Below, piece by piece: positions 2,447 to 7,577 of a DNA stretch of 64,000 nucleotides. Numbering within the stretch: the stretch's first letter is position 1; the number at the start of each line of letters is the position of its first letter. The stretch covers positions 304,795-368,794 of the forward strand of contig NZ_QGHA01000005.1 in assembly GCF_003148845.1 (NCBI RefSeq), given 5' to 3'. The translations under genes and the position numbers were made by a program. The stretch is from Mucilaginibacter oryzae (GTDB taxonomy: Bacteria; Bacteroidota; Bacteroidia; Sphingobacteriales; Sphingobacteriaceae). The notes beneath the pieces are model-generated. The model was not told the DNA's origin and searched no databases. It saw only the letters and a program-made list of their open reading frames with translations.

Positions 2447-2477
2447 ATTGACAAACTCTTTTTTTACCGTACATTTA
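2447..2477 (+). promoter_or_regulatory. Predicted promoter of the pheA leader
   Basis: ATTG (2447-2450), a 19-base spacer, then TACATTTA (2470-2477). This fits the Bacteroidetes vegetative promoter TTTG-N19-21-TAnnTTTG with mismatches at one base of each box. Transcription would begin near 2484, about 16 bases before the leader-peptide ATG. Confidence 0.6.
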
Positions 2478-2499
2478 CGCCGTAATAAAAAACAAACAA

Positions 2500-2565
2500 A
2501 TGAAATTAGCAGGTGCATACTTCTTTGGTTACTACTTTTACTTTACCAGTAAGAGCCGGGACTGA
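2500..2565 (+). CDS. Phe/Tyr-rich leader peptide of the pheA attenuator
   Basis: A 21-codon open frame, ATG at 2500 and TGA at 2563-2565. Residues 7-15 read YFFGYYFYF: eight of nine codons specify Phe or Tyr. The peptide ends with SKSRD, whose codons overlap the first arm of the attenuator hairpins. The frame sits between a predicted promoter and a strong intrinsic terminator directly upstream of pheA, the arrangement of amino-acid attenuators such as pheL in enterobacteria. Its length, start, residue bias and position all support a regulatory rather than structural role. Confidence 0.88.
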   Translation: MKLAGAYFFGYYFYFTSKSRD

Positions 2566-2626
2566 TATGTACTAAACAAAACATATAAAAACACCAAAAG
2601 TCCCGGCCTAAAAGCCGGGACTTTTT
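2554..2626 (+). promoter_or_regulatory. Three-segment transcription attenuator upstream of pheA
   Basis: Three short segments can pair alternatively: segment 1 GCCGGGACT (2555-2563), segment 2 AGTCCCGGC (2599-2607), segment 3 GCCGGGACT (2614-2622) followed by T's. Pairing 2:3 makes an intrinsic terminator; pairing 1:2 prevents it. Segment 1 overlaps the last codons and stop of the leader peptide. A ribosome that reaches the stop would mask segment 1 and allow termination, while one stalled at the Phe/Tyr codons would leave segment 1 free and allow readthrough into pheA. The segments and their complementarity are seen directly; the mechanism is inferred. Confidence 0.85.
2596..2626 (+). terminator. 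Attenuator terminator before pheA
   Basis: A perfect 12-bp stem (2596-2607 with 2614-2625), a 6-base CTAAAA loop and a run of five T's (2622-2626). It ends 15 bases before the pheA ATG, so it must be overcome for pheA to be expressed from the upstream promoter. Confidence 0.9.
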
Positions 2627-2641
2627 GCTTTAACAGGGTTT

Positions 2642-3550
2642 ATGAAAATAGAACGACCAAAAGTTGCAATACAGGGAATCAGGGCATCGTTTCATGAGGA
2701 AGCCGCGATCAGGTACTTTGGCGACAATGTGGAAACCATCGAGTGTAACTCCTTTAAACAAACATTCGAGAGCCTGAAAAAACGCGAGGCCGATTATGTA
2801 GTGATGGCTATCGAAAACAGCATTGCAGGCAGCATTTTGCCTAATTACACTTTGCTGCTTGATTACGGGTTCCCGGTAGTGGGCGAAATTTATCTTCCCA
2901 TCCAGCTGCACCTGATGGCCCTGCCCGGCGTTAAGTTTGAGGATGTAAAGTATGTAACCTCCCACCCTATCGCTTTGCGCCAGTGTGTTGACTTTTTTGA
3001 CGAGTACCCGCACCTTAAAATTGTTGAAAGCAGCGATACCGCCGCCTGCGCCAAACGCATCAGGGATGAGCAGCTTACCGATACGGTGGCTGTTGCCAAT
3101 GCCCTGGCCGCGCAGCTGTATGGCCTTGATGTTTTGGAACGCCGAATCGAATCAAATAAAAGGAATTTCACCCGTTTCCTAATCATTACGCAGCATGATA
3201 ACGTGGAGAAAAAAACGGCCAATAAAGCTTCGCTGTGTTTCCAGGTAAGCAATAAAGTAGGCTCATTGGCTAAAGTACTTAATATTTTTGCCGAAGAAGG
3301 CGTAAACATGAGCAAAATCCAGTCGATGCCTATTTTAGGCAAGCGTAATGAGTATAACTTTTACGTTGATATTGAATGGGAAGAACAAAAACAATATGAT
3401 TCGTCAATAAGGCAAATATTGAAGTATACGCACAATTTCAATATCCTTGGCGAGTATGAGCGCCATGACGACGAACCTTCAACCGCACCCAAACAGCACC
3501 GGGCGGAAAGAAGTATTCGTAAATACATTAACATCAGGCGTAATAACTAA
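2642..3550 (+). CDS. pheA: Prephenate dehydratase with ACT domain
   Basis: A 302-residue monofunctional prephenate dehydratase that makes phenylpyruvate, the committed step to phenylalanine. The catalytic domain covers roughly residues 5-185 and contains the family signature around N175-F176-TRF(177-179). The C-terminal ACT domain (about 196-272) contains KVGSLAKVLNIFAEEGVN and SMPI where the classical ESRP loop lies; in the family this domain senses phenylalanine. The ATG at 2642 lies 15 bases after the attenuator terminator. A basic tail after residue 275 extends beyond the ACT domain. Together with the leader this suggests control at both transcription and enzyme level. Confidence 0.96.
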   Translation: MKIERPKVAIQGIRASFHEEAAIRYFGDNVETIECNSFKQTFESLKKREADYVVMAIENSIAGSILPNYTLLLDYGFPVVGEIYLPIQLHLMALPGVKFEDVKYVTSHPIALRQCVDFFDEYPHLKIVESSDTAACAKRIRDEQLTDTVAVANALAAQLYGLDVLERRIESNKRNFTRFLIITQHDNVEKKTANKASLCFQVSNKVGSLAKVLNIFAEEGVNMSKIQSMPILGKRNEYNFYVDIEWEEQKQYDSSIRQILKYTHNFNILGEYERHDDEPSTAPKQHRAERSIRKYINIRRNN

Positions 3551-3629: not shown

Positions 3630-4757
3630 ATGAAACTAAATTTAAATATCCAGCCGCTTAGCAGTTGGATCAAAACCAGCAGCGAACCATTGGTAATTTC
3701 CGGCCCTTGCAGCGCCGAAACAGAAGAGCAGTTAGTAGCAACCGCTCATTTATTAGCCCAAACAGGTAAAATTTCGGCATTGCGGGCCGGGATCTGGAAA
3801 CCACGCACCCGTCCGGGCGAGTTTGAAGGTATTGGCAGCATTGGTTTAGAGTGGTTAAAACGCGCCAAAGCAGAAACCGGTTTACCTACCGCTGTGGAAG
3901 TTGCAACCGCTAAACACGTTGAAGAGGCCCTGGCCGCCGGTGTAGATATCCTTTGGGTAGGTGCCCGTTCAACCGCTAACCCTTTCACCGTACAGGAAAT
4001 TGCTGATGCCCTTAAAGGTGTTGATGTACCGGTAATGGTTAAAAACCCGGTAAACCCTGATCTTTCATTATGGGTTGGCGCTTTAGAGCGTATCAACAAC
4101 ACGGGCATCACTAAACTGGCTGCTATTCACCGTGGTTTCTCATCGTACGAAAAATCGGCTTTCCGTAACGAACCGATGTGGGATGTTGCGATCAGCCTGA
4201 AAACGCTGGCCCCTGAACTGCCTATCATCAATGATCCAAGCCACATCACCGGCAACCGCGACCTGATTGGCTACGTTTCGCAAAAAGCGTTAGACCTGGA
4301 TATGCAGGGCTTAATGATAGAATCACATATCGACCCGAGCGTAGCGTGGACTGATGCCAAACAACAGGTTACCCCTGCCGCTTTAGCCGATATCATTGAC
4401 CATTTAGCGTTACGCAAACCGGAAGTTAAAAACTCGGAAGTAAATGACAAACTGGCTGAACTGCGTAACCAGATCGACAAAATTGATGATTTGGTGATCC
4501 AGAAAATTGCCGAGCGTATGCAAATTGCCGAGAAAATCGGTCAGTACAAAAAAGATAACAACATTACCATTTTACAGGTTGGCCGTTGGGACGAGATCCT
4601 GCAAAAACGTACCACTTATGGTAAAGCCTTGAAATTAAGCGGCGAGTTTACCGAAAAGCTGCTCGAATTGGTTCACAGCGAATCTATCCGCAGGCAAACA
4701 GAGGTTATGAACGCCGAAGCCAGCCAGGGGCAAGCAGAAAAACTTACACACGCTTAA
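3630..4757 (+). CDS. Bifunctional DAHP synthase / chorismate mutase
   Basis: 375 residues. The N-terminal part (about 1-255) is a type I, KDOP-synthase-like DAHP synthase: ISGPCSAET, GIWKPRTRPGEFEG, IHRGFSSYEK and NDPSHITGNRD are visible. It condenses phosphoenolpyruvate and erythrose 4-phosphate. The C-terminal part (about 270-360) is an AroQ-type chorismate mutase, with ELRNQIDKIDDLVIQKIAER, KIGQYKK and the helix ending HSESIRRQ. Fusions in this order are common in Bacteroidetes. In such fusions the mutase domain can serve as the feedback sensor for prephenate or chorismate. The gene starts 79 bases after pheA without an obvious terminator, so it may share the attenuated transcript. Confidence 0.94.
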   Translation: MKLNLNIQPLSSWIKTSSEPLVISGPCSAETEEQLVATAHLLAQTGKISALRAGIWKPRTRPGEFEGIGSIGLEWLKRAKAETGLPTAVEVATAKHVEEALAAGVDILWVGARSTANPFTVQEIADALKGVDVPVMVKNPVNPDLSLWVGALERINNTGITKLAAIHRGFSSYEKSAFRNEPMWDVAISLKTLAPELPIINDPSHITGNRDLIGYVSQKALDLDMQGLMIESHIDPSVAWTDAKQQVTPAALADIIDHLALRKPEVKNSEVNDKLAELRNQIDKIDDLVIQKIAERMQIAEKIGQYKKDNNITILQVGRWDEILQKRTTYGKALKLSGEFTEKLLELVHSESIRRQTEVMNAEASQGQAEKLTHA

Positions 4758-4764
4758 TTTGATA

Positions 4765-6072
4765 ATGATGCAAAACATCATTCTTAAAAGAAACAATAAA
4801 ATCATTAACGGTACGGTTAACCTCACCGGTTCAAAAAGTGAGTGTAACCGTGCCCTCATCATCGAAGCGCTAAGCAATGGCAAAGTATTAGTTGAGAATA
4901 TTTCTGATGCTGCCGATGCTGTTTTATTAGCCGGCATTTTAAGAGGGAATCAGGAATCAAGAGTCAGGAATCAAGAGATTTTGCCTGGCGATACTAATTC
5001 CGAAATCGAAAATTGCAAATCCGAAATTGTGGATATCGGCCCGGCCGGTACTGCCATGCGCTTTTTAACGGCCTATTATGCCATCCAGCAGGATGAAGTG
5101 ATATTAACCGGAAGTAAACGCATGAAGGAACGCCCTATAGGTGTTTTAGTAGATGCCTTACGTGCATTGGGCGCCAATATTGATTATGAAGAGAACGATG
5201 GCTACCCTCCCATCAAACTTAAAGGTGGTTTTAAACAGCAAACCAACAAAATCAGCATTAAAGGCAACATCAGCAGTCAATACATCACCGCATTGTTGTT
5301 AATTGCATCAAGTTTGCCTGAAGGACTGGAACTGCATATTGAAGGTGATTTAACCTCCCGCCCTTATGTTGAAATGACCCTGGCCATGTTAAACACTGCC
5401 GGGATTAAACATCATTGGGAAGGCAATGTAATTTCGATAGCTAAACAGGATTTTGCCGCTACAACGCTAAGTGTTGAGCCCGACTGGAGCGCTGCTTCAT
5501 ACTGGTACGCTATAGCCGCTTTGGCCGATGAGGCTGAACTGTTTTTAACAGGCCTAACGCCATACAGCTTACAGGGCGATAGCGTAATCACCGAGATCAT
5601 GGCTAACTTTGGTATCACCTCGCAATTTAAAGATGGCGGCGTTCACCTAAAAAAAGAGAACAAACCCATCTCGCGCCGCGAATTTGATTTGAAGGAATGC
5701 CCGGATCTGGCCCAAACCGTAATTGTTGTTTGCGCGGCCTTAAACCACGAAGCATCATTTACCGGCCTGGAGACACTGAAGATCAAGGAAACCGACCGCA
5801 TTTTAGCTTTACAAACTGAACTTGCCAAAATGGGCGTTAAACTGATTGAAAAAGATGAAGTTTATACCCTGGATTGCAGCGGAAAGTTTATACCGGATAA
5901 TATCTTTATCAATACTTACCACGATCACCGCATGGCTATGGCATTCGCGCCATTGGCACTCATCCTGCCGCAAATGGAATTTGAAAACGGCCCGGTAGTT
6001 GAAAAATCATACCCCGCTTTCTGGACAGACCTGGAAAAGCAAGGGTTTGAAGTGGAAGAGAAAGAAGCTTAA
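4765..6072 (+). CDS. aroA: 3-phosphoshikimate 1-carboxyvinyltransferase (EPSP synthase)
   Basis: EPSP synthase joins shikimate 3-phosphate and phosphoenolpyruvate. Visible family motifs: TGSKSECNRALI near the N-terminus, GPAGTAMRFLTAYYA, NISSQYITALLL, and the C-terminal KETDRILAL and YHDHRMAMAFAPLAL. The ATG at 4765 (or 4768) is preferred to the upstream TTG at 4759, which lies only two bases after the preceding stop. Odd point: about 28 residues with almost no family character are inserted between LRG and VDIGPAGT; their DNA (4945-5028) is made of short word-like repeats. The frame stays open and downstream motifs are intact, so the enzyme is probably active with an enlarged surface loop. 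Confidence 0.94.
   Translation: MMQNIILKRNNKIINGTVNLTGSKSECNRALIIEALSNGKVLVENISDAADAVLLAGILRGNQESRVRNQEILPGDTNSEIENCKSEIVDIGPAGTAMRFLTAYYAIQQDEVILTGSKRMKERPIGVLVDALRALGANIDYEENDGYPPIKLKGGFKQQTNKISIKGNISSQYITALLLIASSLPEGLELHIEGDLTSRPYVEMTLAMLNTAGIKHHWEGNVISIAKQDFAATTLSVEPDWSAASYWYAIAALADEAELFLTGLTPYSLQGDSVITEIMANFGITSQFKDGGVHLKKENKPISRREFDLKECPDLAQTVIVVCAALNHEASFTGLETLKIKETDRILALQTELAKMGVKLIEKDEVYTLDCSGKFIPDNIFINTYHDHRMAMAFAPLALILPQMEFENGPVVEKSYPAFWTDLEKQGFEVEEKEA
4945..5028 (+). repeat. Word-like repeat inserted in frame within aroA
   Basis: Two near-copies of GTCAGGAATCAAGAG (first one with AATC at its start) are followed after a short spacer by three GAAAT(C/T)-type words (around 5000-5025). 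Similar low-complexity word repeats lie between genes elsewhere in this window. The 84 bases equal 28 codons without a stop, so the aroA frame is kept. Confidence 0.65.
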
Positions 6073-6281: not shown

Positions 6282-7376
6282 ATGGCAGGTAACTCATTCG
6301 GGCAATTATTCAGGATAACTACTTTTGGCGAATCGCATGGTGAGGCCATAGGCGTAATTATAGATGGATGCCCGGCCGGTTTACCGGTTGACCTTGAGTA
6401 CATTCAGGGCGAACTGGATAAACGCAAACCCGGTCAATCAAAAATAACAACACAGCGTAAAGAGAGCGATACGGTAAAAATCCTGTCGGGAACCTTTGAA
6501 GGTAAAACCACAGGAACACCTATAGCCATGCTGATCCCCAATGAAGATCAGCGCTCAAAAGATTACAGCCATAACGTGGATGTTTTCCGCCCCTCACACG
6601 CCGATTATACCTATCAAACCAAGTACGGTATCCGCGATCACCGTGGTGGCGGCCGATCATCAGCCCGCGAAACCGCTGCCCGTGTAGCGGCCGGAGCTTT
6701 GGCCAAGCTGTTGCTTAAAACCCAGGGCATTGAAATTGTTGCGCACGTAAGCAGCGTAGGTAAAATCAAGGCGCCTAACGTATCGATCAATGATGCACAG
6801 GAGTTTATCGAAGAACGAGAAAAAAACATTGTACGCTGCGCCGATCCGGCTACTGCCGAAGAAATGATCGAATTTATTGACAGCGTACGCAAGGATGGCG
6901 ATACTGTAGGCGGCAAAATCAGCTGCTATGTAAAAAACTGCCCGGTTGGCCTTGGAGAGCCCGTGTTTGATAAACTCCACGCAGACTTAGGTAAAGCGAT
7001 GCTGAGCATCAACGCGGTGCATGGTTTTGAATTCGGATCGGGATTTGAGGGCAGCGAAATGCGGGGCTCGGAACATAACGACATTTTTGTGAAATCGCAC
7101 CTGGGCGATGTGCATACCATTACCAATTTTTCGGGCGGGATCCAGGGCGGGATCAGCAACGGGATGCCTATCGAGTTTAGGGTAGCTTTTAAACCTGTTG
7201 CCACCATCATGAAAAACCAGGCAACAATTGACAGTCAGGGAAACATCGCCGAAATTTCAGGCAAGGGCCGTCACGACCCATGCGTGGTTCCGCGCGCTGT
7301 ACCTATTGTGGAGGCCATGGCAGCCCTTGTTCTCGCTGATCATTGGCTGAGAAACAGAAACTCTAAGTTAAGCTAA
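6282..7376 (+). CDS. aroC: Chorismate synthase
   Basis: 364 residues, close to the usual length. It converts EPSP to chorismate with reduced FMN, ending the shikimate pathway. The three family signatures are present: [18 protein letters not shown] near the start, the Arg/Gly-rich [19 protein letters not shown], and [20 protein letters not shown] near the end. The ATG at 6282 starts the conserved [20 protein letters not shown]. It follows aroA by 209 bases filled with repeats, so it may have its own transcript. Confidence 0.97.
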
Positions 7377-7577
7377 AAGCTTAAGGCAAAAAGCAAAATT
7401 GAGCTAAAAGCCGAAGGCTTAAAGCTAAAAGCAAAATTGGGCTGAAGGCTGAAAGCAAAAAGCTAAAAAGGCCGAAAACTTAACGCATTAAATAGGATGC
7501 TTTAAGCTTTCGGCCTTTTGCTTTAAGCTCAAATAAAAAGCTTTATGCTTTCAGCCTTCAGCTTTCAGCTCAATCCC
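7373..7577. repeat. Dense array of AGCTAAAAGC-type words with inverted halves
   Basis: The interval after aroC is almost entirely variants of AAAGCTTAAGGCAAAAAGC. The first half (to about 7485) carries the words in one orientation; from about 7497 their complements appear (GCTTTAAGCTTTCGGCC, GCTTTCAGCCTTCAGC). The whole therefore forms a long imperfect hairpin that could stop transcription from either side. It ends just before the MFS gene. Confidence 0.7.

Follow-up and report, generated by a model that had tools for sequence, protein, structure and literature searches.

A probable leader-peptide attenuator with mixed Phe and Tyr codons upstream of pheA in Mucilaginibacter oryzae and other Bacteroidota

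How is the expression of pheA, and of the aromatic biosynthesis genes that follow it, controlled in Mucilaginibacter oryzae? The question is raised by a short segment of the window, the stretch of 64,000 nucleotides analysed here (NCBI RefSeq assembly GCF_003148845.1, contig NZ_QGHA01000005.1, positions 304,795 to 368,794 of the forward strand). Reading of the sequence upstream of pheA reveals a promoter, a leader ORF (MKLAGAYFFGYYFYFTSKSRD), three 9-base segments and a T run, in this order and all on the + strand. The promoter has the pattern TTG-N19-TAnnTTT (2448-2476; TTG at 2448-2450 and TACATTT at 2470-2476), which we take to be the Bacteroidota type, and a generic promoter scan places it at 2448-2475. 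The leader ORF comprises 21 codons from ATG to TGA (2500-2565). Its putative sensing codons (2518-2544) are translated as YFFGYYFYF (4 Tyr, 4 Phe, and 1 Gly). The first segment, GCCGGGACT (2555-2563), overlaps the final leader codons and extends one base into the stop codon; it is called region 2 here and would form the 5' arm of an antiterminator. The second segment, AGTCCCGGC (region 3, 2599-2607; terminator arm 2596-2607), is common to the antiterminator and the terminator, and the third, GCCGGGACT again (region 4, 2614-2622; arm 2614-2625), would be the 3' arm of the terminator. The T run, or U-tract, occupies 2622-2626, and its first bases also belong to the stem. Regions 3 and 4 constitute a predicted intrinsic terminator about 16 bases 5' of the ATG of pheA (2642), and the exact terminator motif is unique in the whole genome (5.94 Mb). 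When the 300 bases upstream of pheA were subjected to dinucleotide shuffling 20,000 times, 2 shuffles produced a leader that equals or exceeds the observed 8 aromatic residues in 12, and 0 produced an exact, GC-rich triple of 9-mers in the observed layout. The promoter, the 21-codon leader and the three segments, which had been pointed out in a preliminary description of this DNA, are borne out, and shuffled sequences fail to reproduce them.

The genes downstream are all encoded on the + strand. pheA (2642-3550), encoding a prephenate dehydratase with an ACT domain (Pfam PF00800 and PF01842), is followed by a DAHP synthase-chorismate mutase fusion (3630-4757; PF00793 and PF01817), whose identity had been predicted and is confirmed by Pfam. 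Next are aroA (EPSP synthase, 4759-6072; PF00275) and aroC (chorismate synthase, 6282-7376; PF01264). Judging from its spacing, aroA is probably part of the pheA operon, and aroC possibly is. The nearest named pheA genes are from Mucilaginibacter and at most 97% identical, records from the genome itself perhaps being excluded. Some other features of the neighborhood were observed. An open frame on the same strand, 5' of the promoter (1428-2297), contains an in-frame TAG (1539-1541) and looks like an interrupted gene, the 3' part of which has no Pfam match. Short direct repeats within aroA (4944-4980) and a tract of AAGCTAAAAGC-type repeats 3' of aroC (7370-7560) can be recognized by eye.

The preliminary description proposed that a Phe/Tyr leader-peptide attenuator lies upstream of pheA, and that relatives should conserve the leader frame and show covariation of the segments. 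Searches detected pheA in 143 of 149 genomes of the genus, 143 of 161 at the family level, 128 of 148 at the phylum level, and 32 of 119 at the class level, these draws being overlapping, and 265 upstream rows were inspected. A row was counted as carrying the element if it contained an ATG-initiated leader with 5 or more aromatic residues within 12, a terminator, and a complementary region 2. All 50 Mucilaginibacter rows examined, the window included, out of 143 matches in the genus, carry the element. So do 70 of the 71 rows from other genera of the family (these 71 being 70 distinct loci from 121 matches, L122 being identical to L115) and 76 of the 77 rows from named Mucilaginibacter for which 200 nt or more of upstream sequence is available (L193, L195, and L222 have less than 200 nt); the named and the genome-derived row sets overlap. 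In the rest of the phylum the element is present in 37 of 64 rows (63 distinct, L264 being identical to L150, from 142 genomes with a match outside the family), a non-random sample of the best-scoring rows plus 20 picked by hand. Three of the passing rows (L126, L127, and L137) come from outside the class, within the same phylum.

Some of the exceptions have a recognizable cause. The sole failure among the other family rows, L080, has a leader that starts with GTG. L209, from Mucilaginibacter aurantiaciroseus, fails as well, and a complete-looking unit is situated about 450 bp farther upstream in this locus, with segment 1 at -539 from pheA. The 27 failures in the rest of the phylum include another GTG leader (L143), the tandem locus L150 (= L264), a genome of 0.5 Mb (L266), and distant forms of pheA with 30-40% identity; for L248-L251 and L254, also among these failures, no reason was found. 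By reading, two aromatic leader and terminator units are arranged in series 5' of pheA in L149, L150 (= L264), and L267, perhaps representing two successive gates. Of 232 rows, 200 have the promoter pattern within 75 nt 5' of the leader start codon, 177 with the N19 spacing, compared with 5 matches after one mononucleotide shuffle per row. L160, L162, and L164, which were taken under a loose leader criterion without region 2, and L150 and L264, for which the first of two tandem units was taken, are excluded from the promoter counts and likewise from the 2:3 scores outside the family and the spacing, codon-choice, peptide, recoding, and region-2 counts below.

Covariation was analyzed in 67 genome-derived sequences, hand-picked for diversity from the 121 family rows, and it supports both alternative helices. 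In the antiterminator (2:3), 90.8% of cells are paired and double changes occur in 6 of 9 pairs; the covariation score is 0.157 as compared with 0.128 in shuffled alignments, and none of 500 shuffles reaches it. In the terminator (3:4), 95.8% of cells are paired and double changes occur in 9 of 12 pairs, with 34 double-change cells as compared with 5.6 after shuffling (0/500). Both helices use region 3, and by pairing and covariation they are predicted to be mutually exclusive. Outside the family (37 rows), the 2:3 score is 18.4 for the native partner, 13.2 for swapped partners, and 11.6 for shuffled ones (Wilcoxon 2e-10 and 7e-12 against swapped and shuffled, respectively, although the sequences are related and these and the other p-values given here overstate independence); individually, 14 of the 37 rows beat 95% of the partner swaps. 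Region 2 and the peptide that it encodes change jointly, giving SQD in L089 and L092, SWD in L118, and SRV in L085, which argues that the RNA, and not the peptide tail, is conserved. The comparison proposed in the preliminary description was thus positive in the family, and the conserved leader frame together with the covarying pairing supports an attenuator of this type. A further candidate hairpin, located between regions 2 and 3 (ATATGT at 2565-2570 with ACATAT at 2581-2586), was also considered and rejected: 58.7% of its cells are paired, and its covariation is not above that of shuffles.

The element had been described as a minimal three-segment design, in contrast to which the leader RNA is predicted to pair with itself. 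Folding yields an inner arm (2535-2542/2548-2555), a middle arm (2525-2530/2560-2565), and an outer arm (2512-2519/2566-2573), the latter two including region 2; the whole (2512-2573, + strand) is a candidate 1:2 hairpin, serving as anti-antiterminator and pause hairpin, as suggested by folding, covariation, and recoding. In the 67 family sequences, 97.0% of the inner-arm cells are paired, and 19 double-change cells are found as compared with 4.9 after shuffling (0/500); in 15 sequences C-G is replaced by U-A. The outer arm is conserved, but its covariation is not above shuffles. Codon choice within the leader is biased: the Lys of SKS, GKS, or NKS is encoded by AAG in 79 of 85 leaders, as against 32% in the coding background, and the Glu of SES by GAG in 17 of 18, as against 36%. 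Synonymous recoding of the leader weakens its fold, with a mean z of -2.12 for 152 distinct family sequences (101 with p<0.05) and -1.99 for 37 sequences outside the family (16 with p<0.05), compared with -0.34 for control recoding inside pheA (150 sequences, 8 with p<0.05). When recoding is limited to the codons that precede the inner arm, z is -1.18 in the family (24/152 with p<0.05) and -1.40 in the others (10/37). At least three bases of region 2 are paired to the leader in 152/152 family sequences and 37/37 others, a count that is uninformative because recoded controls reach 95% and 89%, respectively. The share of region 2 that pairs with the leader exceeds recoded controls slightly, at 0.72 as compared with 0.66 in the family and 0.76 as compared with 0.64 in the others. 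These comparisons leave the hairpin of the sensing codons well supported and its outer part, which would cover region 2, moderately so, and the leader hairpin would likely hold region 2 as a classical 1:2 hairpin does. The sensing codons form a further hairpin, the inner arm of which covaries and which is stabilized by codon choice; the three-segment model as first written is rejected on the basis of covariation and synonymous recoding.

With the aromatic codons folding into an additional hairpin next to segment 1, the element is most likely a classical four-region ribosome-mediated transcription attenuator controlling the pheA operon. During transcription of the leader, the aromatic codons (region 1) would pair with the leader-end stretch (region 2). 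By the precedent of the trp and his leaders, this 1:2 hairpin would probably pause the polymerase, to be released when a ribosome opens the hairpin. When charged tRNA-Phe or tRNA-Tyr is scarce (or tRNA-Trp, in leaders that code for Trp), the ribosome would stall in the aromatic run with its leading edge just short of region 2, the 2:3 antiterminator would form, and transcription would continue into pheA. If the charged tRNAs are ample, the ribosome would come to lie on region 2 and block 2:3 pairing, 3:4 would form, and transcription would stop at the U-tract.

The position of the sensing codons is compatible with such a switch. In the rows outside the family, the distance from the start of the last aromatic codon to region 2 is 7-19 nt (sd 2.7). 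The stop codon is placed more loosely, anywhere between 31 nt 3' and 8 nt 5' of the start of region 2 (sd 10.2; null sd 14.1). Since about 12-15 nt ahead of the A site are covered by a ribosome, stalling in the run would leave region 2 mostly free. When the leader region of the window was folded in different ribosome states, with an assumed footprint of about 15 nt on each side, the outcome also agreed with release of region 2 by a stalled ribosome: the antiterminator forms with a free leader and with the ribosome on the first Tyr or the last Phe codon, but not with the ribosome on the stop codon. In each of the four ribosome states, exposure of region 4 makes the terminator the thermodynamically favored fold, and the switch must therefore be kinetic. 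The overlap of segment 1 with the leader stop, a feature of the preliminary description, holds for most of the family, where region 2 overlaps the stop in 163 of 196 rows, but for few rows outside it, where 6 of 37 show the overlap and 28 of 37 have region 2 entirely within the reading frame. The placement of the stop codon has been considered in an analysis of low basal readthrough, presumably by Elf and Ehrenberg. Two strategies for low basal readthrough were derived there, one of which is a far-downstream stop codon (PMC1183508).

What happens when the leader is not translated is less straightforward. Before region 4 is exposed, the fold energies favor antitermination for an untranslated leader, whereas the classical model predicts termination. 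This bears on the idea of a phylum-wide multivalent sensor that combines codons for Phe, Tyr, and often Trp on behalf of their common pathway and reads through by default without leader translation, the default arising because the sensing-codon hairpin would stack beside the antiterminator without excluding it. The organisms concerned make little use of Shine-Dalgarno sites. We regard this combination as rather unlikely. Also unlikely is a design close to the three-segment one, in which the leader hairpin would only pause the polymerase and never hold segment 1, readthrough again being the default for an untranslated leader. Such a design would fit the free leader with region 3 exposed, where the antiterminator is the minimum free energy structure (-24.1 to -24.7 kcal/mol) and retains 7-8 of the 8 inner-arm pairs, so that the best supported arm is compatible with the antiterminator, and it would fit the outer arm without covariation; it accords poorly with a leader hairpin conserved by covariation and recoding, in which codons preceding the inner arm favor pairing too. 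In Corynebacterium glutamicum, a start-codon mutation in the ilvBNC leader is reported to lower expression by 80% (PMC11857589). For the classical four-region attenuator, ribosome stalling, polymerase pausing, the share of region 2 held by the hairpin, and the response to each amino acid with its size are what we infer for the pheA leader.

Which amino acids would be sensed can be judged from the leader peptides. Phe and Tyr are both present in 110 of 110 distinct peptides of the family and in 36 of 36 others, and Trp is found in 33 of 110 and 14 of 36, respectively; the leader of the window has no Trp codon. Among the leaders of relatives, Phe, Tyr, and Trp replace one another. As Phe and Tyr occur in every peptide and the three residues interchange, mixed aromatic sensing is likely, with Trp sensing likely confined to some species; a response to each amino acid would be expected. 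The preliminary description attributed the Tyr codons to the DAHP synthase-chorismate mutase gene. This gene is indeed present, and the explanation shares its place with another that fits at least equally well, namely the tyrA gene in the Bacteroides operon: Table 7 of PMC1173090 gives the order pheA > hisHb > aroA-aroQ > tyrA for B. thetaiotaomicron. In the genome of the window, tyrA candidates are located on contig 9 (PF02153) and, below the cut-off, on contig 3, both outside the pheA operon.

The same peptides make it very improbable that the leader is an arrest peptide sensing a free aromatic compound, for which TnaC is the model. The strong conservation of the peptide within the genus would be expected of such a sensor. 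On the other hand, Phe, Tyr, and Trp substitute for one another, the residues past the aromatic run vary with the RNA pairing, some leaders end in FYYYQ without a tail, and what persists outside the family is the aromatic run and its spacing. Translational control, in which the 3:4 hairpin would hide the start of pheA instead of ending transcription, is the least probable alternative, as the hairpin of the window, although ending about 16 bases 5' of the ATG, has a stem followed by a U-tract, and the unit lies far from pheA in some loci (third segment at -107 in L014; segment 1 at -539 in L209).

The proposed attenuator resembles the trp and his attenuators of E. coli and Salmonella in having product codons in the leader, a I:II hairpin, a II:III antiterminator, and a III:IV terminator (PMC1183508). 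Unlike those leaders, the pheA leader mixes Phe with Tyr and often Trp, and formation of 2:3 is here compatible with the best supported portion of 1:2. The stretch around the leader has no Rfam match at gathering strength. RF01859 (Phe_leader), which is of like kind by name and which we take to be the proteobacterial pheA leader, scores 17.5 bits against a gathering threshold of 55, and RF01692 (Bacteroid-trp), the Bacteroidetes tryptophan peptide leader and thus directed to another amino acid, scores 22.9 against 49. RF00506 (Thr_leader) also remains below gathering (28.2 bits against 55, E 0.0028), and the best permissive match, RsaJ (E 4.4e-6; 32.9 against 100 bits), was taken as a chance match to hairpins. 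Elsewhere in the genome, a leader-like ORF with three Trp codons (MIKNTHKNSWWHQLNWQPARAF) and a terminator-like hairpin were seen 5' of trpE on contig 14, a stretch without an Rfam match at gathering strength, Bacteroid-trp included. Another leader-like ORF (MNGIALHHLHLHHHHVVIS) is found 5' of hisG on contig 3, where an intrinsic terminator was not seen in the upstream stretch.

Computational precedents exist in the phylum. A putative attenuator upstream of the B. thetaiotaomicron pheA operon is listed in a 2005 table drawn from Merino's database (PMC1173090, Table 7); this entry, known there from the table listing, is presumably the same element. In Flavobacterium psychrophilum and other Flavobacteriaceae, a structured, expressed 5' element upstream of pheA was reported in 2021, and the passages concerned speak of "strong clues" for leader-peptide attenuation at amino-acid operons without spelling out the pheA leader (PMC9723704). 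Short ORFs reminiscent of leader peptides are mentioned for B. thetaiotaomicron, pheA being absent from the accessible passages (PMC7366714). The words "bacteroid", "phenylalanine", and "prephenate" do not occur in the accessible portion of PMC2965389, and PMC1262725, as far as its accessible portion goes, deals with Actinobacteria. In the mainly open-access literature covered, outside of which comparative studies may already name Bacteroidetes attenuators, we recognized no experimental study of a pheA attenuator, in agreement with the earlier remark that no experimental description was known in Bacteroidetes; the computational precedents qualify that remark (PMC1173090 and PMC9723704, in the portions cited). 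The novelty of a three-segment design falls, and what remains new is the anatomy of the element, its breadth, and the mixed Phe/Tyr(/Trp) codons.

With the present comparison, the table entry of 2005 and the structured 5' region of 2021 become a concrete, testable candidate attenuator whose regions are delimited and which occurs upstream of pheA in many lineages of the phylum. If the proposed mechanism is true, classical leader-peptide attenuation would extend deep into Bacteroidota, and a single leader would pool two or three amino acids for their common pathway. The double role of the sensing codons, which would read the amino acid supply and also build the hairpin, leaves a signature in codon choice that could help to find similar leaders.
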